Shown here: piece after piece, positions 6,001 through 25,683 of the stretch | Layout of the letters: every line of letters begins with the position of its first letter | Position numbering within the stretch: position 1 is the first letter of the stretch | Origin: a virus | Virus record (IMG/VR): IMGVR_UViG_3300005731_000122 | Coordinates: 1 to 29,807 of that record | Reading direction: 5' to 3' (one strand) | DNA: 29,807 nucleotides | Notes under the pieces: generated by a model | Database searches by the model: none | The model's input: the letters and a program-made list of their open reading frames with translations, nothing else | Told to the model about the DNA's origin: nothing | Translations under genes and position numbers: made by a program

Positions 6001-9000
6001 AGCACCCCCAATGTCTCCCCGCAGGGTGCCGCCCAGCGCGTTCTTCAAGATGCCGTCAACAGAGGCGGACGACGCCTTGACGGCTTCGACACCTTCCTCC
6101 CGAAGATCTACGCCCAAGGTGGGTTCAAAGCTGTAGCTCGGCTGCCGTTTGACCCCACCTACGCGCCAGCTGTCGACCAAGGTTCACTGGCGGACTGGGA
6201 TAATGCAACAATGGCCCGCTGGAATGATGGCCAGCCTGATGTGGTGTTTATGGTCTATGACCCTGACAACGCGACACCGGACACAGACAATGTCGTAGGA
6301 GAATATGATGACGGGATCGCAGCACAAGACGCAGCTCTTGAAGGAATTGCGGGAGAGCGTGGCGGAGCTGGAGAAGGACGGGGATACACCGGCTTCTCCG
6401 ACAGTGCGCCGTCTCTTGCAGCAGGGGTCAACGAGTGGACCGGACGCAAGCCAGACGTAACCGACAATGATATCCGTGATGAAGTCGCGAGGCTGATGCA
6501 GACAGGCCGGACCACACCCAATGCGGTGCTGGCCGGTATCCGGCACAGCCCGATGTTTGCGTATGATCGCAAAATGAATGACGCGACACGCCGCGATAGC
6601 AAAGACTACGGCCACGAGTTTATGGCTGAGCACGCTCGGTTCACGGTCGGTATGCGTGCAACACTGGCAGGCCTGACGAAAGGCATGAAGCCCGAGGCTG
6701 CCGCGTTCTACTTGAGCATGGCTGACAAGCAGCTCGCAGACCACCAGAAGAAACTGATCCACGGCATTGAGCGCGGGACCATTGAGGTTTCCGACGTGGA
6801 CCGGAAGCAGAAGATGTACAAGATCCCCAAAGAGGAGCCTGAGTACGTGCCTATGGAGGCGGCTGGTATTGATCCGCCCGTAAAGACAGTCAAGGCGTAC
6901 AAGCTGTTCCGTCAGCGCGACGGCAAGCTGTACCCCCTGTTTGTGGACGCAAACACAGAGGTGCCGGTAGGGGTGTGGCTGGCAGCCGCCTCGCCCATGT
7001 CGTTTGTAGCAGAGAATGGCCGGACATACGTGCCGTCCACAGGCCCGAAAAAGACCGGCGACAATATCAAGATCCCCAACGCGGAAGTCGCGCAGCAACT
7101 GGTCGACGCTGGGATCACTAAGAGTGTGAACACCAAGACCGTGAAGGCCGTGGCCCAGCGTGCCGGATGGCATGCCGGTGACCTGCCGTTCTCCACCCAC
7201 ATTGGCCCGATGGTGGATGGGCAGAAGGTGCGCGGCGCTGACGAGGTGTGGGCAGAGATCGAGATGCCTGCCGATGTCGATTGGCAGGCCGAGGCGAACA
7301 AGCGCGCCAAGCGCAACAAGGCCGGTGAGATCATCGCCAAGACGGCAGAGATCAACGACCAGATGCCAGAGGGTGGCTATTACCACTACAAGACTAACCC
7401 GAATATGACCGGCAGCTGGATGATCTCCGGCGGCATGAAGGTCAACAAGATCCTGTCTGACACAGAGGTAGCAACCCTGAACGAGGAGGCTGGCGTGGTT
7501 GACTTGCCGCGTGTTCCGACCGCCGCGGCTGGCGTCAATGCGCCCAAGTGGATGGACATCGGAGCTGGCAAGTCCACCACCGAGACGGCCAAGGATGCGT
7601 ACAACAAGATCGTCGCCACGGCCTCGGATCCTCTCGGGTTCTCTGACAGCGTCATGGCTAAGGTCGAGACCAATATCTTCAACCGGTTTGCCCCGATCCG
7701 CCGTCTGGAGATGGCAGCCAAGGGCAAGTTGGGTATCGGCGCGGAGAGCGCCTACAAGGCGGCCGAGACAGCCGTCAATGACAGTGGTCGCAATGAGCAA
7801 CTGCTGTTCTGGGGTGCCGCCAAGAAAGGCAAGCACGGCGAGTTCACCCACGCAGAGGGCACACTCGGCCTGCGTCAGATCTTCGATAAGGTTGCGAACA
7901 GCGTGCCTGAAGGCGAGAGGGGTCAGGCGATGTCTGACTGGATGGGTTACATGGTGGCCCGCCGGATCAAGGAGCTGCGTGCGCGCGGGTTCACAGGATC
8001 TTTCCCGATCCCAGACAGCGAGCTGGACGGTTGGATTGCCAAGGAAACCCCCGCCATGAAAGAGGCGGCGGAGGATTGGCGCAAGCACAACGAAGCAAAC
8101 ATCGACTTCCTTGTGGACACCGACCGGATCAGCAAGAAGCAGGCGGATGCCATGAAGGAAACGGCAGCCTATGTGCCGTTCTTCCGCAGCGACATGAACG
8201 CAGACGGATCCAGCCCAGAGCTGGACCTCGGTGACATCAAAACCTTCCGCAAGGGCGGCGGCGAGATCATGGCGCGCAACCCGAATATCAAAGCTCTGAA
8301 GGGCGGCGACAAGAAAGCCTTCGACAACATCATGCTCAACATGATCCGCAACAGCCAAGCCTTCGCGGCAGCTGGTATGCGGAACGACGCGGCCAACAAG
8401 ACCTTCGACCTAATGAAGGATGCAGGGCTGGCCAAGGACAGCAAAGGTAAAGGTCGAGAGAAACCCAGCAAGGATGCTGTGGCTGTCTGGGTCGACGGCA
8501 ATAAGCGATGGGTGGAAGTCACTGACGACCGCGCCGTTCCACTATTGCAGGCGATGGCAGGGCTGCAGCCACTGCAGCTTGGCCGGATCCAGTCGCTGAT
8601 GGCCGGTATCGGTTCTATCTTTCGTCAGGGGATCACCCTGACGCCAGCCTTCATGGTGCGCAACGCTATCCGTGGTGCCGTGGCAACCGGCCTCCTGACC
8701 GGCGGTGCAAACCTGAGCGTGGCAAACAACACCCTGACCGGCTTCCGTGAAGCCTACCGTGGCAGCGATGCCGTCCGTGCATTCAAGGCACAGTCGGGCA
8801 TGGGTGATTACCGCTTCGGGTCGACAGACACCGGCATCGGCAAGGACGACATCCTGATCGAATACGGGTTGGCGCCATCGACTGTCAGCTCGAAGATCCG
8901 CGCACTGGTGCAGAAGGGTGAAGATGTCGGGACAGCCACAGAATTGGCTGACCGGATTGCCGCCTACCACACCCTAATCGACAAGGGTGTGCGTCCGGAT

Positions 9001-10209
9001 GAGGCTGCCTATCAGGCACGCGCCATCATGGATTATGCCCGCAAAGGATCGAACCCAGAGCTGCGTGCGTGGCTACCCATGGTGCCGTTCCTCAACGCAC
9101 GACTGCAGGGTTACAGCCGCCTGATGGAAGGTAGCTTGGACCGCAAGACCGGCGCCGGTTATGGCGAAGTCTCGCGCGCACAGGCTGGCAAGGCCCTCAT
9201 GCTGCATGGCGCTGTACTGATGGCGCTGAGCGCTGCTCTGTGGGCGCGCAACGCCTTTGATGATGAGCGTCAGGAGAAGTACAAAGAGGAGCCGCTACAC
9301 CGCCGCCTGAATTACCACATCGTCTATGCTGGTGACAAAACCATCCTGATCCCGAAAGCCTTCGAGCTTGGGCATATCTTCAGCTCAATCCCAGAGCTGT
9401 TTGCGGATGCGATGGTCAACGACATGAACGAGGTTGGTGCTGGCGTGAAGAAGATCGCGGCCGACACAGTGGCATTCAACCTCATCCCCGCCGCCGTACT
9501 GCCTATTATTGAGGCGCAAGCCAATTACAGCTTCTTCCGTGGCGCACCAATCGAGGGGCGGCGTGAGCAGAGTATGGCACCGCGTGACCGTGTGACCGGC
9601 GCAGGATCCCTGTCCCGCTTTGTCGGGCAGCAGCTGGGCATCAGTGAGGCGACCGGCGTTAGCCCTGCGATGATCGAGCATTATTTCCAAGGCTTCGGTG
9701 GCACCTACTTCCTGACAGCAGCGTCAGCGATGGACGTCGCAGCCGCTGAGCTGGGGTACGGCAGTGCTCCGGTAGGTGGAGCCTTCGGGGACATTCCGCT
9801 TATTAGCGGTGGCCTGCAGCGCGCCTTCGGGTCTATGATGAAGGACAGCGAGCAGTCATCCACCAAGTACATGGAGGAGTTCTACCGGAACAAGGATTAC
9901 GTGACGCAGATCATGCGGTCAGCCAAGGACGCAGCTGCCAACGGGGATGTGGAGTATGCACGGCGCCTGTTGTTGAACGCAGAGGCTGCACCAGTGGCGT
10001 ATAAGCTGCTAAACAAGGCAAGCCCGAAGTTGGCAGACATAAACGCAGCGATCCGGAGTATCCGAGCCGACACCTCTATGACGCCAGCCCAGAAGCGGAA
10101 GAAGATCACGCCCTTGATTAATGCCCGCAACGATTTGGTCAGAGCAGTGTCGCAGGTTATCGCGGATCTGGAAAAGAAACAGGGGCGCACATTTAAGAGC
10201 GCAAGATGA
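1..10209 (+). CDS. Giant polyvalent / candidate virion RNA polymerase protein (5' partial)
   Basis: The frame is open from base 1 to TGA 10207-10209, so at least 3,402 residues are present and the true start is probably upstream; GTG 154 is only the first start-like codon in the window. Counting residues from base 1: a JAMM-like HTHP...D motif (243-255); a zeta-toxin-like P-loop kinase with Walker A GPPAAGKSS (522-530) and DSDE (545-548); a T7-type RNA polymerase segment (about 745-1475); a helical domain with GPKIGNGFFSNLYGHFNELT (about 1670); a domain with FDTFLPKIYAQGGFKAVARL (about 1980-2100); and a long C-terminal part resembling polyvalent-protein domain LPD38, with hydrophobic helices near 9200 and 9480. 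Length, domain mix and position before the terminase fit a protein packaged and ejected with the DNA, as the ~3,500-residue N4 virion RNA polymerase is; that role is inferred. Gly/Ser/Ala-rich joints coincide with small +1-frame genes. It ends in an ATGA overlap with the terminase gene. Confidence 0.93.
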   Translation, partial: VPDTTEQAAKTEAASGSKPEVAPKPSDVPLEQWTALTAARKEGDADAAAKAVLEAAGIEPTPEAITAMTMSGNASNGQRLRRAFDSLDVADPTPLSAKQEVSLRKSAEGALSDTPHYTDMNAMANEAKRRGFEVDPKDPDRDAILKSLAKEIVGEPEPSEMDADIEAGFGDAWRPMVKEIGGAGVKMDTAEQTMREITEAEGYEISALFSPDGILLGAGTLGDPNAVSIAKTEWDAKGNTFTHTHPYQTPPSGSDTMLLADMGDDATVRAVLPDGQVISVRKTDNSITAKQMEAVTIDVMRAAEEAKATGAMRDAMPMVANARVVQEATLRYMETLGLINVDSPLQKLSGEENAEIETIVDIATDRGAGASNDVGSGAAQAERRPAGAGGIGLTPRGAGAQAGSTTVQDVIFETAGLKGRVEQLMDQTGMTAGEAMVQPEVRDQWHAIGRMMTEVDGTNERAGYGSPADMATRQYIFGSETVTGRDKAVARLARDAMQLASVETGMPYVAPDANREAIVIMGPPAAGKSSIAGKIAYDSGSAIVDSDEAKKILPEYADGAGAAVVHEESSDLGKDMLKLLSDRGINMVIPKVGDTVKSMQKTVDTLAAKGYTVKFVLQDVTPTSALDRMASRFVKTGRLIPSFVSDNVGFKPQETFRQLVDQGIGVGHTALDGEVAYGQPLPVKQTAGFAPVSGATFDAKQVSVRQPRGGDGSGAVRPQSGSGAYGSGRFGGAGPTVAEGITPQPADQPYDKIKSIANQERVAELVAGIQAVAPSLSRKKSATEKDIISGAITTKQLTDAINAAAMSTGGEGSKFSNAVFNTAKAMYPRANFDFMQIVEGKDRKGKKIKVPNKAMAEKLNHAFNVIHMTGHAGHGRFMSQKADVKARSGFVFETQFLRMDYDLQKFLDFTSPAEFRFHTPMTDPSDVSAIVRRPSTSRFDADALEAAKNTARILQSNVYTIDQAQVDALTVDDLISDRKLGQMRMKRENIVGPDGHTIDTTKLTDDQAMFIGEQRGYAQAILQNLKRAAKAHGDNPVGFRYRISDNGRITADGFFHPQTADAVKSIFLHNGQSLKAMPTVDHSASGWQMTALIARDAEAAKHFNLGKDQALTEGYEKSDIYNGVTDMAKAQIVADAANEDHPKNQQAKLIKAKIIDKGIAFAKPQVKVPTIATNYGAGSSKFSEELNKIYKSEFKGVPEADMKGLWGYFGDTTYDKLAELAPQSMAFQGWALRNLTKLVEAAETGPFDAAPKLEFTVGLDGKFAAKRAKRAKVYVQTITKRAIVDAEGTMGERQLNQMLDTNLKQLDPKATARTIYSQLIQGFDASTLHRAVDIYTSDGGDYVTTNHDSYTVPQGSAGQIAAAARQSMQEIMSEAGNVPMRLYNEMVTQAEALGVDVDIEQPPALGDYDLADLDTSVPAFVENAEDAPPAFTDTSGEIKEGAPSFPAIARAIDYDAADTGAETGVKMDTSLPKAAIHAEQHQYRTGRDFKVALQEMAKAAQAEQGIDLTQLTDENVERLADFLVEDAQAAFVNNSNAVGWYDRTVTEAKQTLQEIHPELATDPEAEFKFIWALAVTSNGIKVNKNFELADQAYEYMKRNGSFPTNIGIGDAAKAINAGLAMYDVLVKNLGGWEAARDFMVKRQTVKEAEVASGIKISGEGKGTTVRGAAILGPKIGNGFFSNLYGHFNELTMDRWLVRTVGRWRGGLIGINEKMVGEKQRQLKDALKSLSPAELRAIRGMFEGYDGPIRKTMSNAAIDRLANEINKRSTSAAWRTDLNGLTGGETIRKVGNGLAGYLDGQIEQPAGVKDRDFIRKVFNRGLDKLRQNPEMSELTMADLQALVWYPERRLYDTAKKPAGQEALGYADDEAPDYANAARRLVSGRRGSEPSGSGSGIDQGGGGSPAGDPTVARGTGFGSSQDRSDGPDDGNNVSFDRGSASGLSRPAEGVEYADAMGRAGAAMGPIAAQVSRVEPDAQVDRYLLDGGSTGYALDGDNIIGVFSTPNVSPQGAAQRVLQDAVNRGGRRLDGFDTFLPKIYAQGGFKAVARLPFDPTYAPAVDQGSLADWDNATMARWNDGQPDVVFMVYDPDNATPDTDNVVGEYDDGIAAQDAALEGIAGERGGAGEGRGYTGFSDSAPSLAAGVNEWTGRKPDVTDNDIRDEVARLMQTGRTTPNAVLAGIRHSPMFAYDRKMNDATRRDSKDYGHEFMAEHARFTVGMRATLAGLTKGMKPEAAAFYLSMADKQLADHQKKLIHGIERGTIEVSDVDRKQKMYKIPKEEPEYVPMEAAGIDPPVKTVKAYKLFRQRDGKLYPLFVDANTEVPVGVWLAAASPMSFVAENGRTYVPSTGPKKTGDNIKIPNAEVAQQLVDAGITKSVNTKTVKAVAQRAGWHAGDLPFSTHIGPMVDGQKVRGADEVWAEIEMPADVDWQAEANKRAKRNKAGEIIAKTAEINDQMPEGGYYHYKTNPNMTGSWMISGGMKVNKILSDTEVATLNEEAGVVDLPRVPTAAAGVNAPKWMDIGAGKSTTETAKDAYNKIVATASDPLGFSDSVMAKVETNIFNRFAPIRRLEMAAKGKLGIGAESAYKAAETAVNDSGRNEQLLFWGAAKKGKHGEFTHAEGTLGLRQIFDKVANSVPEGERGQAMSDWMGYMVARRIKELRARGFTGSFPIPDSELDGWIAKETPAMKEAAEDWRKHNEANIDFLVDTDRISKKQADAMKETAAYVPFFRSDMNADGSSPELDLGDIKTFRKGGGEIMARNPNIKALKGGDKKAFDNIMLNMIRNSQAFAAAGMRNDAANKTFDLMKDAGLAKDSKGKGREKPSKDAVAVWVDGNKRWVEVTDDRAVPLLQAMAGLQPLQLGRIQSLMAGIGSIFRQGITLTPAFMVRNAIRGAVATGLLTGGANLSVANNTLTGFREAYRGSDAVRAFKAQSGMGDYRFGSTDTGIGKDDILIEYGLAPSTVSSKIRALVQKGEDVGTATELADRIAAYHTLIDKGVRPDEAAYQARAIMDYARKGSNPELRAWLPMVPFLNARLQGYSRLMEGSLDRKTGAGYGEVSRAQAGKALMLHGAVLMALSAALWARNAFDDERQEKYKEEPLHRRLNYHIVYAGDKTILIPKAFELGHIFSSIPELFADAMVNDMNEVGAGVKKIAADTVAFNLIPAAVLPIIEAQANYSFFRGAPIEGRREQSMAPRDRVTGAGSLSRFVGQQLGISEATGVSPAMIEHYFQGFGGTYFLTAASAMDVAAAELGYGSAPVGGAFGDIPLISGGLQRAFGSMMKDSEQSSTKYMEEFYRNKDYVTQIMRSAKDAAANGDVEYARRLLLNAEAAPVAYKLLNKASPKLADINAAIRSIRADTSMTPAQKRKKITPLINARNDLVRAVSQVIADLEKKQGRTFKSAR
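1058..1231 (+). CDS. Overprinted small ORF 1 (57 aa) in a Gly/Ala linker of the giant gene
   Basis: This ORF lies in the +1 frame inside the giant gene. A GGAG at 1048-1051 sits six bases before ATG 1058, and a TGA in the same frame at 1043-1045 precedes it; TAA is at 1229-1231. The product is hydrophilic and basic, with a helical-looking C-terminus (MSDQELRKLKDDPLAREALA...). An internal double ATG at 1115/1118 is a possible alternative start. Over the same bases the giant frame reads a Gly/Ala-rich string (GAGASNDVGSGAAQAE). By hand count, third-position GC is 43/57 codons in this frame against 27/57 in the giant frame. It sits between the JAMM-like and kinase segments. Function is not recognised. 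Confidence 0.5.
   Translation: MPKSKQSSTSQPTVAREHLMMSDQELRKLKDDPLAREALASRRAARERKLGQQQSKT
2030..2224 (+). CDS. Overprinted small ORF 2 (64 aa) between kinase and RNA polymerase segments
   Basis: This ORF lies in the +1 frame inside the giant gene. GGAGAAG at 2017-2023 lies six bases before ATG 2030, and TAG 2024-2026 closes the same frame just upstream. The product is acidic and hydrophilic with a helical C-terminal half (YARNPDLAHMDRAASAELDQ). The giant frame over the same DNA is low-complexity (GGDGSGAVRPQSGSGAYGSG). By hand count, third-position GC is 48/64 codons here and only 25/64 in the giant frame. In ordinary giant-frame coding at 3541-3660 it is 34/40, so the coding phase appears to switch frame across this interval. 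No family is recognised. Confidence 0.6.
   Translation: MDNPSQSSKQQASPQSVEQLSTQNKYPFDNLGEETDQERYARNPDLAHMDRAASAELDQLLRKG
2233..4425 (+). other. T7-like single-subunit RNA polymerase domain inside the giant protein
   Basis: Four motifs of the T7/N4/mitochondrial RNA polymerase family occur in the right order. A T/DxxGR-type element SDNGR (3130-3144) is followed by FFHPQTADAVKS, which parallels the T7 stretch FNPQGNDMTKG. Motif A is DHSASGWQ (3241-3264; T7 DGSCSGIQ), giving the first catalytic Asp. Motif B is KPQVKVPTIATNYG (3487-3528), with the same spacing as T7 R627...K631...Y639-G640, including the catalytic Lys and the Tyr that selects NTPs. Motif C is HDS (4039-4047; T7 H811-D812-S813), the second catalytic Asp. 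After motif C, a segment ending PPALGDYDLADLDTSVPAFV mirrors the T7 C-terminus (LPALPAKGNLNLRDILESDFAFA-like). The ~730-residue domain is shorter than T7 RNA polymerase (883). Both catalytic Asp residues and the Lys are intact, so activity is plausible. The boundaries are approximate. Confidence 0.86.
5591..5845 (+). CDS. Overprinted small ORF 3 (84 aa) after the helical domain
   Basis: This is the best supported nested gene. AGGAGG at 5576-5581 lies nine bases before ATG 5591, with a same-frame TAG at 5585-5587 immediately upstream. The product has normal protein composition, Asp/Gln-rich and mostly helical-looking (LEAQGLDPAKIDQTVLTMAT, ending LLQDYPDLRRA). The giant frame here reads GSEPSGSGSGIDQGGGGSPA-type low complexity, although its first ~50 bases (PDYANAARRLV) still look like genuine domain sequence. 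By hand count, third-position GC is 61/84 codons in this frame against 35/84 in the giant frame. The next +1-frame ORF starts three bases after its stop, as in an operon. Function unknown. Confidence 0.65.
   Translation: MQTTKHQTTQTQPDDLYLDAVDPSQADQDLELTKAVAAAQPVTRQSLEAQGLDPAKIDQTVLTMATMYPSTEALLQDYPDLRRA
5849..6136 (+). CDS. Possible overprinted ORF 4 (up to 95 aa)
   Basis: ATG 5849 follows the TAG of the preceding nested ORF after three bases, with GGAGGG at 5836-5841 as a well spaced ribosome binding site. Over its first 44 codons (to about 5980) third-position GC is 34/44 in this frame against 17/44 in the giant frame, and the product begins MPMLWEGLGQPWVQSQPKSP. Beyond about 5980 this frame turns Ser/Pro/Arg-rich and looks like a shadow, while the giant frame resumes a convincing domain (IIGVFSTPNVSPQGAAQRVL). 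Either only the N-terminal part is meaningful, or the two frames truly overlap here. Confidence 0.3.
   Translation: MPMLWEGLGQPWVQSQPKSPELNLMPKLTDTFLMEAQLDMLSTGITLSVFSAPPMSPRRVPPSAFFKMPSTEADDALTASTPSSRRSTPKVGSKL
6308..6460 (+). CDS. Overprinted small ORF 5 (50 aa) before the C-terminal polyvalent domains
   Basis: This ORF lies in the +1 frame inside the giant gene. AGGAG at 6297-6301 precedes a double ATG (6305 and 6308); 6308 has the better six-base spacing. A TAG in the same frame overlaps the ribosome binding site, and TAA is at 6458-6460. The product starts MTGSQHKTQLLKELRESVAE and continues ELEKDGDTPASPTVRRLLQQ, a plausible short charged helical protein. The giant frame over the same bases is GIAGERGGAGEGRGYTGFSD-like. 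By hand count, third-position GC is 38/50 codons here and 25/50 in the giant frame. Function unknown. Confidence 0.52.
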   Translation: MTGSQHKTQLLKELRESVAELEKDGDTPASPTVRRLLQQGSTSGPDASQT

Positions 10210-11156
10210 AGGCACTAAGAAACCATGAGCTAGAGACCCTTCGCCGTCGCTTCGAGGCGGTGAAGGCGAAGCAGTTCGACCCCTACGCCCAGTTCGAGAC
10301 GATCCCGTCACCAATCGAGCTGGGCGAAGCCTATTTGGGTTTCGGTCTGGATCTCTGGCAGAAAGACTACATGCTGTCCGCGCCTGCCATGGCGCGCATC
10401 GCTATCGCCGCCAGTCGGCAGTCAGGCAAATCAACAGTCACGGCGATCTTCGTGGCGTGGTGCCTGATATTTATCCCCAAGTTCACCGTGCTGGTGGCCT
10501 CACGCTCACTGCGTCAGGCATCGTACTATGTGGACAAGGTGAGGGAGATCGTGTTGGGGATTATCCCGAAGGACGCAATGGTTCAGTTGAACCGGCTCAG
10601 CATGGAGCTCCCCAACGGCTCTCAGATTATCTCAATCCCCTGCGCGCAACCAGACGCTGGACGGGGCTTTTCGCCGCACCTGATCCTTTTGGATGAGGCC
10701 GCGTTCGCCCCTGAGATGTTGTTCACCGCCATCATGCCATCGGTGGCTGCGACACACGGAGCCATCCACATGATCTCCTCACCGAACGGTCGCCAAGGTC
10801 GGTTCTTCGAGGCGCATGAGGGCACAGCCAAGGATGTCTGGTGGTCGCAGCGCGTGACGTGGAAAGACTGCCCGAGGATGACGCAGGAGCAGATGGAGAT
10901 CGAGAAGATTGCCATGGGGGAGTTGTACTGGCGGCAAGAATTTATGGCCGAGTTTGTCCAGCCGCTCGGGGCGTTCTTCGGTAACCGAGGGGTGCTGTCT
11001 TTTGAGGATGGTGAAGATATGGATCTGACCGGTTTGGATTTAAGGGACATGGAGGGTATGCTTGAAGACATCGCGCCATCCATCGACCCGACAATTGAGG
11101 ATGTGCGCGCAGCAATAGATGCCGCTGATAGAGTGAATAGGTTGCTACAGGACTGA
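10206..11156 (+). CDS. Terminase large subunit, ATPase half
   Basis: This is the packaging motor ATPase that drives DNA into the procapsid through the portal. The 316-residue product has Walker A SRQSGKST (residues 70-77), Walker B LILLDE (159-164) with the catalytic Glu, and the coupling motif SSPNG (191-195), all in TerL order. The upstream WQKDYM segment also fits the family. It ends in a ~50-residue acidic tail (DGEDMDLTGLDLRDMEGMLE) and stops before the nuclease domain, which is the next gene. Full TerL proteins are usually one 450-700 residue chain, so this one is split. The start overlaps the giant gene by ATGA and the stop overlaps the nuclease start as TGATG, both suggesting coupled translation. 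No separate small terminase is recognisable in the window. Confidence 0.93.
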   Translation: MKALRNHELETLRRRFEAVKAKQFDPYAQFETIPSPIELGEAYLGFGLDLWQKDYMLSAPAMARIAIAASRQSGKSTVTAIFVAWCLIFIPKFTVLVASRSLRQASYYVDKVREIVLGIIPKDAMVQLNRLSMELPNGSQIISIPCAQPDAGRGFSPHLILLDEAAFAPEMLFTAIMPSVAATHGAIHMISSPNGRQGRFFEAHEGTAKDVWWSQRVTWKDCPRMTQEQMEIEKIAMGELYWRQEFMAEFVQPLGAFFGNRGVLSFEDGEDMDLTGLDLRDMEGMLEDIAPSIDPTIEDVRAAIDAADRVNRLLQD

Positions 11157-11905
11157 TGGAAGAGATATTCAATACGATTGGCGACCTGAAGGACCGCGGG
11201 TTCTCTCTCGAAGATCCGCCCCTGAATATTGTGTGCTACGACCCTGCGGGTGACGGGGACGACAACGATGCTGTGGTCATCCTGTCCCGAGAGGAGTGGC
11301 GCCGCGGCGAGCTGCATGATCCAGACTTGGCTGTGGAGATGATCTTCCGCCTGATCCTTTCGTCCTACCTGCCAAACGATATGGAGTTTCCTGACAAGTT
11401 GGCTGCCCTGCTCAGCGTCAACAACCAGATGCTGAAGTGGCAGCGCCAGAAGCGCCAGCACGCCCACGTCATTGGTGTAGAGACGAACGGCGTCGGGTAC
11501 GCTATGGCGTCAAGCTTGCGTACCAAAACCAATGTGCCGGTCATCGGGTACAACACAGTCGGCAACATGAAGGACCGCCCCTTTGAGGGGAAAGACACAT
11601 CCATGCCCCGCCTCGCAGCGCTGGATAACTTTCGGGTCTATCTTGAGATGAACAGAATTAAGATCCTAAAGGATTGCGTTGGCAAAAAGGATATGGTCAA
11701 CGAGCTCAATTCTTTTGTCTGGGCTGCCAAAGGGAGACCTGAGGCTATGGCCGGTGCGCGCGACGATCTGACTATGGCGGCAGCTGGCGCGCTGTGGATT
11801 GGAACCAAGCTGATCCCGCCGATTAATAAACAGGTTCGGATTGATCCAAGATCTGGTATAAGAAGCCACCTAAACCGCACACGCGGCAATATGAGGATGA
11901 ACTAA
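11156..11905 (+). CDS. Terminase large subunit, RNase H-fold nuclease half
   Basis: This is the headful/cutting nuclease of the packaging motor, encoded as its own 249-residue protein. The acidic metal-binding triad of TerL nucleases is visible: CYDPAGDGDD (D29), VIGVETNGVG (E109) and GARDDLTMA (D203/D204). The segment around PVIGYNTVGNMKDR resembles the family's mid region. It starts at ATG 11156 overlapping the ATPase stop by one base, and the portal ATG directly follows its stop. The first ~22 residues precede the nuclease fold and could form the contact with the ATPase chain. No Walker motif is present, so it must work together with the preceding protein. Confidence 0.9.
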   Translation: MEEIFNTIGDLKDRGFSLEDPPLNIVCYDPAGDGDDNDAVVILSREEWRRGELHDPDLAVEMIFRLILSSYLPNDMEFPDKLAALLSVNNQMLKWQRQKRQHAHVIGVETNGVGYAMASSLRTKTNVPVIGYNTVGNMKDRPFEGKDTSMPRLAALDNFRVYLEMNRIKILKDCVGKKDMVNELNSFVWAAKGRPEAMAGARDDLTMAAAGALWIGTKLIPPINKQVRIDPRSGIRSHLNRTRGNMRMN

Positions 11906-14263
11906 ATGGCCGACGGAGCTCGCACATTTACCGACCAAGATAGCGGTGACCTCATCATTGATGGCGGTCAGGAGCAGACAGAACAGAAGGATATGCCGCA
12001 CTTCGGGAACCTGAGCGACGGCGTTATCACCCCCAGAAATCTGGACATACTGTCATCCACCATCACTGAGCTGGTTGCGTGGGACGAGAGTGAGCGCGAG
12101 AAGTGGGAAGAGCTACTCGCTGAAAACACGAAGCTGCTCGGGCTGGGGCCGGAGACAGAGGCGGACAATGTCGAGGATGAAAACTCGGATACGTCAGACC
12201 ACCCCCTTATGCTGACTGCATTGCTGCGCTTCCAGTCGAAGGCATTAAGCGCCCTGCTCCCAGCCCCTGATCGGGTGTGCCGGACGGAATGCGCTCTCGA
12301 TCTGGATATGATCGAAGACGAAACCCAGCGCGACGATGTGCGCGAAGCCAGTGACGAAGCTGGCCGCCGTGTCGAAAAGTTCTTTGCGGATTATCTACTG
12401 AAACGCCACAAGACCTACCGCGAAGACACCGACAAGATCCTCTACGATTGCGGCATGCACGGCATGGGGATCCGGAAGATCTACAACGACTTCTCCAGAG
12501 CCAAGTCGGTGACCCGCGTTGAGCACGTTGACCTGAGCAAGCTGGTCCTGAGCTACGACACAAAGAGCTTCACCTGCGGTCGGATCACCGAGATTATCGA
12601 TATGCCCACACCGGATCTGATCCGGAACATCACCAACGGAACTTACCGATCCACGACGCTCTCCAGCGCGATGGTGGACTTGGCCACACCACTGGTGGAG
12701 GCCGAAGACAGGGTCCACGGACTGGACAGCGGGGCTGTTCGGGAAGGTGAGACCCACCGGATCTACGAGGTGGCCATGGAGCTATTCCTGTCGGACGACC
12801 AGCACCCGAAAGGGTTGGCCCGCCCGTACATCATCACCATTCACGCAGCCACGCAGGAGATCTTGAGCCTGCGCCGCAACTGGCAGGAAGGTGACGAGGA
12901 TGAGGAAGCGATTGAGCGGTATGTTGGCTACATCTTCCAGACAGGCAAGAACGCAGTCAACGCCATGGGTCTCGGACAGATCCTGTCAAACAGCACGCGC
13001 GCCCTGCGCCGCGCGCAGCGCCGCGGCCTAGAGGCCGCCTATCTACAAAACCACCCGTCCGGCTTCAAGCTGTCCAGCATGAAGATCCGAGACGACGGCG
13101 CCAAGATCATTGCCGGTGAGTTCGTCGACGTTGACACACCAACCAACGACATCCGGTCAGCCCTGATGCTGCACCCGTTCCAAGGTCCAAGCCAAGGGCT
13201 CATGACCCTTGCTGATAAGATGGAACAGAACGGGCGCGAGCTGGGCGGCATTGCTGCCATCGACTTCTCACAGTTGATGAAGGCCGGTGTTGCAGCTGGC
13301 CCTGCCATGGCGGCGTACGATGAGAGCACAGAGTTCCAGACCGCCATCCACAGCCGCCTCCACCACTCACATGCGAGCGAGCTCCGCCTGATTATGGACC
13401 GGATGCGCGAAGTGCACGGCTCCAACCCGATCCCCTTCGGCGTAAACTCTACGCTCCAGTCGGGCGATCTGACGCTGGTGGATTTGACCCCGATCATGCG
13501 GCCAAATCAAACCTCCCGCCAGCGCCAGATCTTGGAGGCCAGTGCGATGATGGACCTTGCGTCCGCGCACCCTGACATCATCGATCTACGTCGAGCTGTT
13601 GAGGATTATGTCAAGGCTGTGGGCAAACCCGATGTCTCGCTCTACATCCTGCCGGACCCATCCGAGGAGCCGCCAGAGCCAAGAGATCCAGTCAGCGAAT
13701 ACATGGGCATCCTGAACGGCATGCCTGTACGCGCAGGCATGCACCAGAACCACCAAGCGCATATCGACGCCCACGCGGCACAGATGCGGATGGTCGGCAC
13801 CAGCCAGCTGCCAATTGAAAAGGGCGAAGCTGCGATGGCCATGCTGGCCGCACATATCGCGGAGCACATGGGCATGCAGATGATCGCAGATGTCGCGAGC
13901 CGGTTGGGTATCCCAGCCGAGCAGTTTGGTCAGATCACGCCTGAGATGGAAGCCCAGCTGGCACCAGTCATGGCCGAGCAGATCGCAGCAATCGAAGCCG
14001 AGCGCGCGCCACCTGAAGAGCGGGGCGAGAGCAAGGTTGAAGTTGAGATGGTCAAAGGGCAGAATACCCAAGCTATCAAAGCGCTGGAGCACCAGCAGGC
14101 AGTCGAGCTGGCTGAGTTAAAAGCCCAGCATGAGCGGGCACTGCAGACACAGCGTGACGAAGCTGCTATGGATCGCTCTATACAGGACGACGAGACCGCG
14201 CTGGAAATTGCGGCGATGAAGGATCGAAACACAGCCCCCACCCGTGCTGGTGGGATATCATAG
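11906..14263 (+). CDS. Portal protein
   Basis: This is the dodecameric ring at the capsid vertex through which DNA enters and leaves. At 785 residues it is close in size to the N4-type portal (763) and follows the terminase, as portals usually do. The N-terminal helical region reads HPLMLTALLRFQSKALSALL, typical of podoviral portals. Mid-protein segments such as IPFGVNSTLQSGDLTLVDLT and YILPDPSEEPPEPRD resemble portal clip/crown regions. The last ~110 residues (from about 14000) form a highly charged coiled coil (EHQQAVELAELKAQHERALQ), which could be the barrel entering the capsid. The assignment rests on position, size and these segments. Confidence 0.85.
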   Translation: MADGARTFTDQDSGDLIIDGGQEQTEQKDMPHFGNLSDGVITPRNLDILSSTITELVAWDESEREKWEELLAENTKLLGLGPETEADNVEDENSDTSDHPLMLTALLRFQSKALSALLPAPDRVCRTECALDLDMIEDETQRDDVREASDEAGRRVEKFFADYLLKRHKTYREDTDKILYDCGMHGMGIRKIYNDFSRAKSVTRVEHVDLSKLVLSYDTKSFTCGRITEIIDMPTPDLIRNITNGTYRSTTLSSAMVDLATPLVEAEDRVHGLDSGAVREGETHRIYEVAMELFLSDDQHPKGLARPYIITIHAATQEILSLRRNWQEGDEDEEAIERYVGYIFQTGKNAVNAMGLGQILSNSTRALRRAQRRGLEAAYLQNHPSGFKLSSMKIRDDGAKIIAGEFVDVDTPTNDIRSALMLHPFQGPSQGLMTLADKMEQNGRELGGIAAIDFSQLMKAGVAAGPAMAAYDESTEFQTAIHSRLHHSHASELRLIMDRMREVHGSNPIPFGVNSTLQSGDLTLVDLTPIMRPNQTSRQRQILEASAMMDLASAHPDIIDLRRAVEDYVKAVGKPDVSLYILPDPSEEPPEPRDPVSEYMGILNGMPVRAGMHQNHQAHIDAHAAQMRMVGTSQLPIEKGEAAMAMLAAHIAEHMGMQMIADVASRLGIPAEQFGQITPEMEAQLAPVMAEQIAAIEAERAPPEERGESKVEVEMVKGQNTQAIKALEHQQAVELAELKAQHERALQTQRDEAAMDRSIQDDETALEIAAMKDRNTAPTRAGGIS

Positions 14264-14273
14264 GAGGGATACC

Positions 14274-14438
14274 ATGAAGCAAAGAGACCCATGGAGCTGG
14301 CCACGCAAGGCAAAGGCAGAAGTTGAAGCGCCTGAGCCGGAACCCACGCCCGAGCCTGAGGTGCCCAAGCCGGAACCCACGCCGGAGCCTAGCCCCAAGA
14401 AGGCCCCTGCTAAAAAGGCTGGGAAGAAGGGTGAGTGA
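14274..14438 (+). CDS. Small Pro/Glu/Lys-rich protein
   Basis: This is a 54-residue protein starting at ATG 14274 behind a strong AGGAGGG (14262-14268). It has a WSWPRK segment near the N-terminus, then Pro-Glu repeats (EPEPTPEPEVPKPEPTPEPS) and a Lys/Ala tail (KKAPAKKAGKKGE). The repeat and basic tail resemble disordered linkers or DNA-contacting tails, but no family is recognised. It lies between the portal and head-assembly genes, and its stop overlaps the next start (GTG 14431), so it is probably a head-associated accessory protein. Confidence 0.65.
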   Translation: MKQRDPWSWPRKAKAEVEAPEPEPTPEPEVPKPEPTPEPSPKKAPAKKAGKKGE

Positions 14439-14646
14439 AGTTGCGCTCTTAAACCCGCAGGTCGAGAGTGATTTGGCGATAAGCCTGATCGCCCTTGGCC
14501 AGAAGCGTATTGATGCGCTATCCAATAAGCTCTTGCGAACAGAGCTGTCCCACAACGAGTATCTGAAAGCGTTCGGGGCGATCACAGCTTTGCAAATGTA
14601 TGTCGACGATATGACAGAAACCTACCAGAGAAAGGTAAATGTATGA
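14431..14646 (+). CDS. Small helical hypothetical protein
   Basis: The product is 71 residues, starting at GTG 14431 (SEVALLNPQVESDLAISLIA...) eight bases before the end of the previous gene, with GAAGAAGG just upstream. A longer version from ATG 14323 would add an Arg/Pro-rich stretch that is only the shadow of the previous gene, so the GTG is preferred. The sequence looks like two or three helices with no transmembrane segment or known motif. It ends in an ATGA overlap with the GroES-like gene. Confidence 0.7.
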   Translation: MSEVALLNPQVESDLAISLIALGQKRIDALSNKLLRTELSHNEYLKAFGAITALQMYVDDMTETYQRKVNV

Positions 14647-15164
14647 CCGGACTATTGCTCCCAAAGCGCGCCGCAGCCCAGCGGGTAGCGGAAGCAACCG
14701 CCGAAAGTATTGGCGGATCCGCTGTTCACCGTATGGACAGTGACGACTTCGTTACGCCCGAGAATGTATCCGAGCAGCTCGCCCAGCTTGCTAAGTACGT
14801 GGCAGACCGCCGCGAAGAAGATCCAAACTACCAGCTGCCACAGCCCAGCGGCTGGAAGATGATGGTCCTTATGCTGACCATCCCAGAAAAATCAGCAGGC
14901 GGCGTCATCGTAATGGACGACGCAAAAGAGGCTCGCTCCCTGTCGTCTCCCCAAGGTGTAATCCTTGATATGGGTCCGGCGGTGTACAGCGACCCAAGCC
15001 GGTTTGCCGTCGACGGGGAGATTATTCCTTGGCACGACATCGGTGACCGCATCACGTTGGTAAAGTACGACGCCAGCATGTTTCAAATCGCGAACGGGCA
15101 ACGCCTTGGGTTCATCAATGACACCCAGCCCATCGCCACAATTGACAAAGGATGGACGCTATGA
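14643..15164 (+). CDS. GroES-like co-chaperonin
   Basis: The product is 173 residues. After a ~65-residue N-terminal extension the sequence follows the Cpn10 pattern: SGWKMMVLMLTIPEKSAGG (the strand and mobile-loop region), GVIVMDD...SSPQGVILDMG, then DIGDRITLVKYDASMF and a C-terminal QPIATI strand. Phage co-chaperonins such as T4 gp31 replace host GroES so that the capsid protein can fold in GroEL. Its place two genes after the portal and four before the capsid gene fits that role. The extension and overall divergence are unusual for the family (GroES is about 97 residues). It overlaps both neighbours by ATGA. Confidence 0.72.
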   Translation: MTGLLLPKRAAAQRVAEATAESIGGSAVHRMDSDDFVTPENVSEQLAQLAKYVADRREEDPNYQLPQPSGWKMMVLMLTIPEKSAGGVIVMDDAKEARSLSSPQGVILDMGPAVYSDPSRFAVDGEIIPWHDIGDRITLVKYDASMFQIANGQRLGFINDTQPIATIDKGWTL

Positions 15165-16030
15165 AGCCTGAATGGATGAAGAATTTCATTCTCCGCGCAC
15201 CGGAGAATGAAAGCGGGGGCGGTGGAGTTTTCGAAATTATGGACGAGGGCGCGTCCTCGGAAGATCCCGCCCCTGCAGAAGACCGCACGTCGAAGGTGGA
15301 AGCCCGCCTTGACCGGCTGACCCAATCCCTTGAGGGCTTCATGTCGAAGACCACCAAGCAGGAAGAGGAGAGCAACTCTCGCGTTATTGAGCAGCAGATC
15401 ACTTCGGCAATTCAAAGGCAGGAAGCCCTGCTGGATGAAGCTGAAGACAAGCTGGCCGCCGCCTTTGATGATGGCGATGGCCGCACCATTGCGAAAGCAC
15501 AGCGCGTGGTTGCTCAGGAAGCTGCCAAAGTGGAGCGCGTCAAGGCCCAAGCTGACCAGTACCGGCAGCAGCTCAAGAGCTCCGAGCGCCGCTCCGGTGG
15601 CGCCGGAAGCACTGACCTTGACACTTCAAATCTTGATAGCTGGAAACAAAGACATGTTTCGTGGTACGGTGTTGACAAGGATATGACCAAGGCCGCACAT
15701 GAATTGGATGCCCAGATCCGTTCAGCTGGCGTGTTGGCCTCTGGGTCCAAGGAGTATTTTGATGCGATTGATCGCCAAATGAGACAGAAATTCCCAGACC
15801 GCTTCGGCGGAACACCTCCAACTGGCGGAAGCCAGCAGCGGGGCAATGGCCAGCCTAGCAGCACCAACCGCGTCCGCATCCCAGCGTCCGTGGCTGATGG
15901 GTTCCGCCGCATGGGGATCAACATCGACGATCCGGATACAGCCAAGCGCATGGTTAAAAACCGTGAGAAGGCCGTCAGTAAAGGCTGGCTCAATGACCAA
16001 CCCGCCACAGGAAGGATCTTTCAGCGATGA
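15161..16030 (+). CDS. Scaffold-like capsid assembly protein
   Basis: The product is 289 residues from ATG 15161, chosen because AAAGGA (15147-15152) is well spaced and the start forms an ATGA overlap; ATG 15152 is an in-frame alternative. The protein is very charged, with a long predicted coiled coil (about residues 45-150; VEARLDRLTQSLEGF, AKVERVKAQADQYRQ). A second helical part includes GSKEYFDAIDRQMRQKFPD and a basic tail. A charged coiled coil just upstream of the decoration and capsid genes is the usual profile of a phage scaffolding protein, which organises capsid subunits and then leaves. No protease domain is visible. The call is from composition and position. Confidence 0.6.
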   Translation: MKPEWMKNFILRAPENESGGGGVFEIMDEGASSEDPAPAEDRTSKVEARLDRLTQSLEGFMSKTTKQEEESNSRVIEQQITSAIQRQEALLDEAEDKLAAAFDDGDGRTIAKAQRVVAQEAAKVERVKAQADQYRQQLKSSERRSGGAGSTDLDTSNLDSWKQRHVSWYGVDKDMTKAAHELDAQIRSAGVLASGSKEYFDAIDRQMRQKFPDRFGGTPPTGGSQQRGNGQPSSTNRVRIPASVADGFRRMGINIDDPDTAKRMVKNREKAVSKGWLNDQPATGRIFQR

Positions 16031-16527
16031 CCGACAAGCAAGATCGCGCCCGATCAAACACTACCAAGAGCCGTGAAGCCGACAGCACCGCCGCCATGGA
16101 GCGCCCGCCCATGGAGCGGTGGTCACCTGCCAACACTCTCGAAATGCCGAAGATCCACGGGGAATATCGCCTCCGGTGGATCGCCGAGTACGTTAACGGG
16201 GTTCACACCCCGCGCACCGTACAGTCGGCACTGCGAGAGGGATACGAACGTGTATCCGTCGAAGAATTTGTCGAGCCCTTCATTGTTGACGAGGATCTAA
16301 ACGGGGATGGCTTTGCCAGAACCGGCGGCCTCATCTTGATGAAGATCCCGTCAAAGTTTGCTGAACAGCGTGAGGCATACTACCGCTCGCGTTCAGCTCA
16401 AGGCCTCGAAGGCGCCAATGTTCTGCAGGGTATTGCAGGGCAGAACGCTGTCTATGAGGATCGTGGCACTCGCACCCTGTCAGGTGCAGAGGCTGGTGCC
16501 GCTCTACGCAACTTGTCTAATCAGTAA
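16027..16527 (+). CDS. Conserved-looking head-module protein, unknown function
   Basis: The product is 166 residues, starting in an ATGA overlap with the scaffold-like gene. The first ~40 residues are polar and likely disordered. The core (YRLRWIAEYVNGVHTPRTVQ, then EGYERVSVEEF) looks like the small head proteins often found just before decoration and capsid genes in podoviruses. The C-terminus is Gly/Ala-rich. I cannot assign a function; a minor capsid or assembly role is inferred from position only. Confidence 0.72.
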   Translation: MTDKQDRARSNTTKSREADSTAAMERPPMERWSPANTLEMPKIHGEYRLRWIAEYVNGVHTPRTVQSALREGYERVSVEEFVEPFIVDEDLNGDGFARTGGLILMKIPSKFAEQREAYYRSRSAQGLEGANVLQGIAGQNAVYEDRGTRTLSGAEAGAALRNLSNQ

Positions 16528-16538
16528 GGAGAAGACCT

Positions 16539-17087
16539 ATGGCAGGTTTTGGACTTCGTCTGGCACGGTCGCAAGGCATGGAGGGTTATTCGGGCAACTT
16601 TACTCAGTTCGATATTCTCCCCACCAATGCTGACGCGATCTTCACAGGCGACCCCGTCGTTCTAAACGCGGGCTATCTGGAAGCGGCAACCACCGCTGCC
16701 GGACCTATCCTTGGTGTATTCATGGGGTGTCAGTACGAAGACACCAATGGCGACATCAAGTTTCGCAATCAGTGGGACGGCGCCCCGAACCGCGAGAACA
16801 TCCGAGCTGCAGTCGCTATGCCTGCATCGTCGTTGTTCTGGATCAAGGGCAAAGAAGGCGTGAACTTCGCGCAGTCTACCTCGGTCGGCGCAACTCACCC
16901 GTTTGACACCACTGTAGCTGGTAACACTCAGTACGGCGACAGCCGTGTGACGCTGGGCGCAGCTGGTGCTGGTGCTCTGATTGTTCACCGGCTCGTCGAC
17001 CTTCCGCACAATGCGTGGGGCACTGACGGACCAATCCTTGAAGTCAGCGTCAACTTGCAGGCGGCGACGTTTGCAGACGCATCGTAA
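16539..17087 (+). CDS. Capsid decoration / stabilisation-like protein
   Basis: The product is 182 residues with AGGAG (16527-16531) before ATG 16539. The sequence is beta-rich, begins GFGLRLARSQGMEGYSG, and carries GDPVVLNAGYL and LGVFMGCQYED, a pattern of small structural proteins encoded directly upstream of major capsid genes that decorate or cement the shell. There is no signal peptide or catalytic motif. It lies 14 bases before the capsid gene, with which it is surely cotranscribed. Confidence 0.68.
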   Translation: MAGFGLRLARSQGMEGYSGNFTQFDILPTNADAIFTGDPVVLNAGYLEAATTAAGPILGVFMGCQYEDTNGDIKFRNQWDGAPNRENIRAAVAMPASSLFWIKGKEGVNFAQSTSVGATHPFDTTVAGNTQYGDSRVTLGAAGAGALIVHRLVDLPHNAWGTDGPILEVSVNLQAATFADAS

Positions 17088-17101: not shown

Positions 17102-18013
17102 ATGTCCGCTATTAACCGCGCAGCTCTCGCAGAGCACCTATGGCCAGGAATTATTGACTTTTTTGGTCTGGAATACGCAGACTACGAAGAGCAATACACC
17201 CAAATCTTTGACACTCGTGGCTCGACAAAAGCCTATGAAGAGTACGTGATGGAGAGCGGGTTTGGGTTGGCACCAATGAAAGAGGCCGGTGCTCCGATCT
17301 CCTTCGATGAGGCGGCCGACACTTGGAAGGGCCGCGTCGAAATGGTCGCATATGCTCTTGGTTTCGTGATCACTCGCGAAGCTGTTGAGGATGACCAATA
17401 CTTCGATCTGGTTCCACGCTACACTCGTGCGCTGAAGCGCTCGATGGTGCAAACCAAGGAAGTACGTGCAGCCGCATTTGTTGACGGCCTGTTCTCGACT
17501 TCGAAAACCGGCGATGGCCAACCTGTCTGTTCAAACGCGCACCCGCTGAAAAATGGCGATACGTTCTCGAACGTAGCGGCTGCGAATGCCGACCTGAACG
17601 AGACATCATTGGAAGCCGCGATCATCCAGATCGCCGACTATGTCGACGAACGCGGCCTGCGCATCAACGTGCAGCCACAACGGATGATCATCCCCAACGG
17701 ATTGCAGTTCACTGCAGAGCGTCTGATGAAAACCACCGGCGCTCGCGTCGGCACTGGTGATAATGACGTGGCAGCAATCCACACGATGGGCATGATCCCT
17801 GAAGGGTACAAACTCAACAACTACCTGAGCGATCCTCGCGCATGGTTCTTGAAGACGAACGTATCTGAAGGCATGACCTACTGGGATCGTACCCCGCTGG
17901 ATCTCGAAGACGGCGACGGCAGCGAGACCCAGACCATGAAGGTGATGGCCTATGAGCGTTATGCGTTCTCAGCCATGGATCCTCGCGGTATGTGGGGCGC
18001 TGAGGGCCAGTAA
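17102..18013 (+). CDS. Major capsid protein
   Basis: The 303-residue product is in the size range of HK97-fold capsid proteins and resembles the Mu gpT-like capsid group: YEEYVMESGFGLAPMKEAGA, then FVITREAVEDDQYFDLVPRY, a central HPLKNGDTFSN segment and PQRMIIPNGLQFTAERLM. A G-rich ribosome binding site (AAGGGGGG) precedes ATG 17102. The gene follows the scaffold- and decoration-like genes and is followed by a rho-independent terminator, as expected for the most abundant virion protein at the end of a head operon. No N-terminal delta domain to be cleaved is evident. Confidence 0.86.
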   Translation: MSAINRAALAEHLWPGIIDFFGLEYADYEEQYTQIFDTRGSTKAYEEYVMESGFGLAPMKEAGAPISFDEAADTWKGRVEMVAYALGFVITREAVEDDQYFDLVPRYTRALKRSMVQTKEVRAAAFVDGLFSTSKTGDGQPVCSNAHPLKNGDTFSNVAAANADLNETSLEAAIIQIADYVDERGLRINVQPQRMIIPNGLQFTAERLMKTTGARVGTGDNDVAAIHTMGMIPEGYKLNNYLSDPRAWFLKTNVSEGMTYWDRTPLDLEDGDGSETQTMKVMAYERYAFSAMDPRGMWGAEGQ

Positions 18014-20643: not shown

Positions 20644-21828
20644 CCCCATCGGAACGATCTACAACAGCGACCAGAAAGTGGTCATCGTCCATAACGGATC
20701 CCGAGGGGCGCGTGGCCTTGTCGGGGAAGATGGCATTCAGGGTGAGCAGGGCGACAGCTTTGTTGTCCGTGGCTTCTGGGTGAGTGGGTCTACCTACGCG
20801 CCGCTGGATGCGGTCAACGCTCGGTCTTCCGTGTCTGAGGGTCTGACCAGCCTGTATATCCAACTCAGCTCAGCTGACACTGCCGTCTCCACCACGGAAC
20901 CCTATCTGGATCCCGCACGGTGGACAGAGATCGGCGTGTCGGATCTGAACAGCACCTTCGGGGGGATCTGGACGGTCGAGCAAACGGGTCATCCATTCCG
21001 ATTTTCGGGACAGCCGGTCACCCATGGCAGCGGCGGGTACGAGCTAGGGTCTGCCAGTACCTATGCTATCGGGGTTGTTCGCGAAGTCATCAATAGCAAT
21101 GCGTTCGTCCTTCAGTCGACCGGCGGTATTTCCGAGGTGGATCCAAGATCCTCTGCCTCCGGAGAATTTCGGGCGGGTGAGATCTACTATGTGTCCGGAT
21201 CCGCCGGCCTTTTGACGGACGTCCCTCCAGCTGGAGCGGGCCAAGTTGTCTCTCCGATCTATGTGGCGACAACATTGTCAGAGGGCGTTGTCTTGCCTTG
21301 GGCGCCAGTGGAAGTACCGGCGCAGCCGGTGCAGGCCGCGACAGCGCTGACCAAGTTCTACTTCACAGCCGAGGAGGGGCAGACAGTGTTCACCGGCGTG
21401 GATGACAATGGCGCAGTCCTCGATATGTCAGGGGCCATGGTTGATGTATTTCTGGGCGGCCTGAACCTGCGGGAGGTCACACAGTATACGAATACGGAAA
21501 CCACTGTGACACTGGCATCTCCAGCCGCATCCAACGAGACACTTGAGGTATGGGCGGCAGCCACCTCACCACTTGCCGCAGCCACACGGGTCAAGGCGGA
21601 CGTGCTGGTGTTTGACGGGACGTCGACGATTTACATTTTGGAGGCGGGTGGTGACGATATCCCGCTGGGCAGCGCGCAAGACTTCGATGTCTATCTGGAC
21701 GGCAACCCGCAAGAGCCCTCGGTGGACTATACGATTATTGATGCAGGCGGCGGTCAGACAGCTATCCGGTTCACCATCGCACCTGAGCAAGAAACATCCT
21801 CTTGGATTGTATACGGTGTCACAGGCTA

Positions 21829-21829
<1 letters not shown>
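20636..21829 (+). CDS. Tail fibre / tip protein with short collagen-like stretch and Ig-like repeats
   Basis: The product is 397 residues from ATG 20636, supported by GGAGG at 20622-20626; the longer frame from 20561 would run inside the previous gene. Near the N-terminus seven Gly-X-Y triplets ([20 protein letters not shown]...) are followed by a carbohydrate-binding-like segment ([20 protein letters not shown]). The C-terminal part has two related beta domains: one from [19 protein letters not shown] with [16 protein letters not shown], and one from [19 protein letters not shown] with [17 protein letters not shown]. These are common in phage fibres. It probably forms the base to which the longer collagen-like fibre joins. 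The stop overlaps the next start (TAATG). Confidence 0.78.

Positions 21830-25683
<3,854 letters not shown>

Follow-up and report, generated by a model that had tools for sequence, protein, structure and literature searches.

The 173-residue protein encoded among the head genes of the window, the 29,807-nucleotide stretch of viral DNA analyzed here (IMG/VR record IMGVR_UViG_3300005731_000122), is a divergent Cpn10/GroES co-chaperonin of an already known kind. As a gene it is unremarkable within an established phage family; what is added here is the association of one lineage of major capsid protein (MCP) with Cpn10, obtained by tests of MCP-bearing phage records and IMG/VR contigs. No title or abstract opening across the open-access literature searched states a rule linking MCP to Cpn10. 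By analogy with known systems, the phage-encoded Cpn10 probably acts as a lid on host GroEL that serves head proteins, a reading to which a probability of roughly 70% is assigned. If the link to the capsid is true, the use of a GroEL lid specific to the virus for folding the capsid, best known from T4, would be a fixed trait of a group of sea and freshwater phages, and the testable rule would follow that this capsid protein requires its own lid.

Sequence and predicted fold of the Cpn10 protein

The gene extends on the plus strand from an ATG at position 14643 to a stop codon ending at 15164, the extent that the initial annotation had given for a Cpn10-pattern protein. ATGA junctions link it to both neighbours, its start codon overlapping the end of an ORF of 71 codons and its stop codon overlapping an ATG at 15161, the probable start of the next gene. 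The whole frame, including an N-terminal extension, is kept in four homologues from IMG/VR contigs with 63–68% identity. Between the window and these homologues the core (residues 65–173) is 69–73% identical and the extension (residues 1–64) 45–64% identical, with dN values of 0.21–0.24 and 0.38–0.59 respectively and synonymous sites near saturation. Since the full frame is present in the four homologues and amino-acid change is well under synonymous change, the results indicate a real gene. The pattern of dN indicates that core and extension are both conserved at the protein level, with looser constraint on the extension.

The window protein matched the PHROG family of co-chaperonin GroES (phrog_3188) from residue 67 on with E=5.6e-4. 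Searched alone it matched no Pfam model and no PDB sequence, and matches to NCBIfam were far below the cut-offs only. A tblastn search of 50,697 phage records returned 10 records at E≤1, all annotated GroES or chaperonin 10, the best with E=3e-12. A profile of five window-lineage sequences gave no significant match in the PDB, the best being CadC (E=0.5) followed by 3nx6 (E=1.4). When 11 sequences were used, the profile matched Cpn20 (7ekq, 1.1e-23), Xanthomonas Cpn10 (3nx6, 1.1e-16) and E. coli GroES (1.6e-6); 18 of the 20 rows were Cpn10-type and the other two were named Scone. A 39-sequence profile returned the same families, with Cpn10-type entries in 18 of 19 rows. Among the 39 aligned proteins, 36 matched Pfam Cpn10 (PF00166) and all 39 matched PHROG co-chaperonin GroES, in each case with E≤0.01. 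The window Cpn10 is 21–32% identical to the 34 remoter members. Since the single protein and the lineage profile fail, membership in Cpn10 is reached via intermediate relatives combined with the fold. Three seeds found at least 598, at least 597 and 434 relatives in IMG/VR, sets that may overlap. The loci analyzed were the best 80 from each of the three largest lists of relatives, and a complete frame was obtained for 164 of 166 loci, the remaining two being dropped. In contigs of bacterial and archaeal genomes, 167 pattern matches were obtained, none of them to a relative.

The structure was predicted with AlphaFold2 from 39 sequences chosen out of more found, and the model is of middling confidence (mean pLDDT 72.7, pTM 0.58). 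Foldseek against the PDB placed Cpn10-type chains at all of ranks 1–27 with a best E of 1.5e-3, T4 gp31 (1g31) being rank 27. VIA-align gave Z 7.3 for Thermus Cpn10 (1wnr, 76 residues at 3.5 Å), 7.2 for 3nx6, 6.2 for gp31 in 2cgt and 5.5 for 1g31. Every Z was below 8, yet the Cpn10s formed a single block above all others, with 16 Cpn10-type entries at Z 7.3–5.5 and the first non-Cpn10 entry at Z 4.3. The viral structure library BFVD returned nine matches at E≤0.001, eight named co-chaperonin GroES and one nameless. Thus, in the comparison with GroES and gp31 that the initial annotation had proposed, solved Cpn10s were nearest with gp31 among them, and the predicted model contains a Cpn10 β-barrel. 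The PHROG match, the family profile against solved Cpn10s and the predicted fold all agree on a Cpn10-pattern protein. A chance similarity or a spurious ORF would be in keeping with the lack of Pfam and PDB matches for the single protein and its sub-cutoff NCBIfam matches, a possibility of negligible probability that is refuted by the conserved homologues, the profile matches, the fold match and the gene order.

Mobile loop, roof position and N-terminal extension

The mobile-loop region spans residues 80–100 (14880–14942, plus strand) and was predicted with low confidence, the mean pLDDT being 56 for residues 81–90 and 49 for residues 91–100. Within it, the sequence GG-VIV at residues 86–90 (14898–14912, plus strand) aligns with the GG pair and the tripeptide in Cpn10s of solved structure, so that the hydrophobic tripeptide sought at the suggestion of the initial annotation was found. 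Conservation was evaluated in 180 distinct homologues, mostly the best 80 from each of three seeds, with the repeats L176 and L177 and the partial L178 omitted. The tripeptide is all-hydrophobic in 178 of the 180, the exceptions being L258 (IHL) and MinM2 (IIR), and it is preceded by GG in 173 homologues and by SG in 7. Among the sequence features, the retention of this putative docking peptide argues most strongly that the protein would still work with GroEL.

The conservation of this peptide bears on the alternative that the Cpn10 fold was repurposed as a head-assembly or virion protein, with GroEL binding lost and a new function residing in the extension. The strong divergence from the 34 remoter members, the long variable extension and the adjoining scaffold-candidate gene are consistent with such a change of role. 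In contrast, GG or SG and the hydrophobic tripeptide are kept in the homologues while much else changes, and the low confidence of the loop is as expected of a flexible loop. A repurposed fold is thus considered very improbable.

The roof-loop position corresponds to residues 111–135 (14973–15047, plus strand), located between predicted strands at residues 104–110 and 136–139. Residue D117 is invariant across the 39-sequence alignment. No deletion was seen in this 25-residue segment, which the model is too poor to place; in this respect the window protein may differ from T4 gp31, which we take to lack the roof hairpin and so to provide a larger cage. The protein shares the Cpn10 core and the mobile-loop tripeptide with bacterial GroES/Cpn10, and differs by the extension of approximately 65 residues, the location in a phage head module and, as aligned with the 39-sequence profile, an insertion of four residues following the mobile loop.

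The N-terminal extension comprises residues 1–64 (14643–14834, plus strand). The initial annotation had estimated its length at about 65 residues, which is right because the Cpn10 match begins at residue 67. The extension is conserved within the window lineage, as judged from ten distinct members: the window, L005, L006, L173, L175, L178 (N-terminal end only), L278, L281, L282 and L284. All ten have the start M-[TS]-x(0,2)-L-[LF]-x-P and, ahead of a predicted helix, the block [ST]-D-[DAE]-[FW]-[VAI]-[TS]. The helix was predicted by AlphaFold2 at residues 39–59, with a pLDDT of 83–93 over most of its length. A wrong choice of start codon as the origin of the extension was rejected, as it is kept in the four homologues with many synonymous changes and the motifs are present in ten of ten members. 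The extensions of pelagiphage and DSL-LC04 relatives are different in sequence, and the CRP type has a short one. By eye, the L-L-x-P peptide resembles the tripeptide plus proline of many Cpn10 mobile loops.

Gene order and association with the major capsid protein

The Cpn10 gene was initially described as located between portal and scaffold-like genes. The first part of that description held, in that the gene is downstream of the portal with two small ORFs between, while the scaffold label is positional only. The portal protein (11906–14263, plus strand) was assigned by phrog_1216 (E=2.4e-4) over the whole protein, no single stretch being significant, and matched nothing in Pfam. The second small ORF (14431–14646, plus strand) has 71 codons and a GTG start, and ORFs of 71–72 residues occupy the same place in L006 and L005. 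Directly after Cpn10 is a gene of approximately 290 residues (15161–16030, plus strand; alternative in-frame ATG possible at 15152), a scaffold candidate from position only that belongs to a PHROG family of unknown function (phrog_28737). It is followed by two conserved head-module genes, one of 166 residues (16027–16527, plus strand) assigned by gene order and by phrog_36003, also of unknown function, and one of 182 residues (16539–17087, plus strand) assigned by gene order with no PHROG match. The MCP, the proposed client, follows at 17102–18013 (plus strand; PF25209, 6.1e-14) with 303 residues and an estimated mass of ∼33 kDa.

The order Cpn10, three genes (∼260–355, 135–185 and 180–220 residues) and MCP is common to relatives, phages of Pelagibacter, Roseobacter and others in which the gene four places ahead of the MCP is annotated GroES. 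It was found in HTVC027P, CRP-902, DSL-LC04, 023Pt_psg01, HTVC023P, ct2os315, CRP-901, QDWS535, MW202785, MW202545, GB2A and RW. MW202675 has the same order from Cpn10 to MCP with extra small ORFs, and in MinM2 the first two of the three intervening genes are at the record end and the MCP at the record start. The window ORFs fit the HTVC023P-type order, in which genes of ∼290–355, 150–170 and 180–220 residues separate Cpn10 from the MCP, when compared with HTVC027P, 023Pt_psg01 and HTVC023P. The upstream side is variable, most having a portal, a connector or a large unnamed gene with 0–11 small ORFs between; in CRP-901 and CRP-902 the nearest large upstream gene is annotated nuclease.

In order to ask, conversely, whether this MCP is invariably accompanied by a Cpn10, phage records were collected with the window MCP, which finds 21 by tblastn at 25–49% identity. 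In this set, 16 records were tested, OQ135106, OQ137561 and MW202604 were left out, and for OL906435 and PP438419, beyond the 16, a GroES was seen in the Cpn10 tblastn search. One Cpn10 over the Pfam cut-off (PF00166) was present in each of the 16 tested records, half of which (8/16) were new relative to the Cpn10 tblastn search. The Cpn10 gene was within the head module in 14 of the 16, counting MinM2 across the record ends. The two others are MW202601 and vir526, a virus assigned to archaea, both with Cpn10 located away from the head operon. In MW202601 it lies two genes from the gene of a single-stranded DNA-binding protein, and in vir526 one gene ahead of the terminase. The 39-sequence Cpn10 profile misses the vir526 copy and finds the MW202601 copy at E=0.005, which suggests, without proving, separate acquisition. 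Locus L276 (BK063670.1, 42826–43182) encodes the 10 kDa chaperonin of a tailed virus one gene from the terminase; the record names Methanomicrobiales (archaea) as host, and its capsid protein is 30% identical to the window MCP.

Among IMG/VR contigs found by the MCP, Cpn10 was upstream in 10 of 12, and in the two misses the contig reaches just 1304 and 1993 bases upstream, which leaves no room for Cpn10. Five of the 12 (L005, L007, L280, L173 and L175) were already known through Cpn10, and the seven newly found comprise five with Cpn10 and the two that end too early. L007 and L280 encode the same Cpn10 protein, and L285 has a partial gene only. In nine hand-picked control phages, five of them on Pelagibacter, Roseobacter or Caulobacter, Cpn10 was found in one (T4). 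PF25209 was over the cut-off in N4, HTVC010P and Mu and below it in LKA1, all without Cpn10. Cpn10 as a trait of all phages with a PF25209 capsid was consequently rejected, since N4, HTVC010P and Mu match that family and lack the gene. Since the records are partly close kin and five of the 12 contigs had been found via Cpn10, the counts are not of independent events; together with the hand-chosen controls, this makes the result an MCP–Cpn10 association and not a statistic.

Cpn60 was found in none of the 16 tested MCP relatives, which points to host GroEL as the probable partner. No co-encoded GroEL was found in the window record, which is possibly a fragment, so that this absence says little. 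The steady company of Cpn10 with one MCP lineage favours a role in capsid folding with host GroEL. It was also considered that the protein is a general co-chaperonin, increasing the capacity of GroEL or diverting it to phage proteins of all kinds without a particular tie to the capsid protein, the site among head genes reflecting late expression. The occurrence of Cpn10s in other phages (the BFVD matches and T4) and the location outside the head operon in vir526 and MW202601 are in agreement with a general role. However, the tie to one MCP lineage in all tested records and the absence of Cpn10 from eight of the nine control phages fit a specific client better, and a general role is judged unlikely.

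According to the preferred reading, that of a lid on host GroEL serving head proteins, seven copies of Cpn10 would assemble as the lid and the mobile loop with GG-VIV would dock onto the apical domains of GroEL. The substrate folded in the capped chamber would be the 303-residue MCP or some other protein of the head, for which host GroES may be a poor partner or too scarce. The N-terminal extension may provide a contact peculiar to the phage, whether with the client, with GroEL or among the subunits of the lid. A more speculative version, somewhat doubtful although not far-fetched, is that host GroEL-GroES is unable to fold one capsid lineage, which is therefore invariably accompanied by its own lid, not bound to the head operon and perhaps acquired repeatedly. 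In this version the lid of the window lineage would have gained a second, N-terminal mobile-loop-like peptide, L-[LF]-x-P, that may contend for the docking site on GroEL or supplement it.

Known systems and other genes of the window

The initial annotation had set the co-chaperonin against a podovirus-like genome. The relatives are indeed of podophage type, but the gene is not unusual there; it is routine in the group and a published core gene, one study placing the co-chaperonin in the 13-gene core of the HTVC023P-type phages and giving a count of 82 genomes (PMC9599517). A genome figure for the CRP-901 type likewise marks a co-chaperonin (PMC10149686), and co-chaperonin GroES is listed with structural genes in viral genomic islands in a further report (PMC6487183). 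Chaperonin genes of the thermosome and GroEL types are given for only 7 of 2,429 reference viral genomes in another (PMC5332604). The phages of the HTVC023P type (HTVC023P, HTVC027P), CRP-901/902 and DSL-LC04 have, as the window does, a Cpn10 of the same family four genes before an MCP of the same family (43–49% identity to that of the window), are without Cpn60, and in most cases have an N-terminal extension. Their Cpn10s are only 24–29% identical to that of the window, and the window lineage differs from the HTVC023P-type group in having its own extension with the conserved L-[LF]-x-P start.

Enlargement of the cage, the reason applying to T4 gp23, need not apply to the window MCP since it has only 303 residues. 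The window protein would resemble T4 gp31, and RB49 CocO, as a phage Cpn10 paired with host GroEL, and its predicted model matches gp31 in structure. It differs in sequence, with 11–14% identity to gp31, and the window MCP is smaller. The analogy with gp31 is limited to function. In T4, gp31 takes the place of GroES on E. coli GroEL and folds the capsid protein (PMC3012670).

Other genes of the window were also noted. A 3351-residue ORF (154–10209, plus strand) has a zeta-toxin-like kinase domain at residues 461–608, a single-subunit RNA polymerase region at approximately 1029–1369 (PHROG RNA polymerase, E=4.6e-17; Pfam RNA_pol, 2.2e-9) and LPD38 close to the C-terminus, and is reminiscent of the giant N4 virion RNA polymerase. 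The sequences DHSASGWQ (1030), K-x7-YG (1116–1125) and HDS (1296–1298) resemble motifs A, B and C of T7-type polymerases. Phage matches of the polymerase at E≤0.001 were confined to three records (LKA1 twice and HHBS14_1) with 24–25% identity, N4 being absent, and no PDB polymerase was matched by the ORF. The polymerase region gave no match to a 58-kb relative in a search run without a positive control. The large terminase subunit seems split into an ATPase ORF of 316 residues (10206–11156, plus strand; PF03237) and an ORF of 249 residues (11156–11905, plus strand) with a weak terminase match, joined by a TGATG overlap; MW202785 likewise has two ORFs annotated large terminase. A 1293-residue ORF at 21802–25683 (plus strand) matches many repetitive tail-fibre and collagen-like PHROG families.
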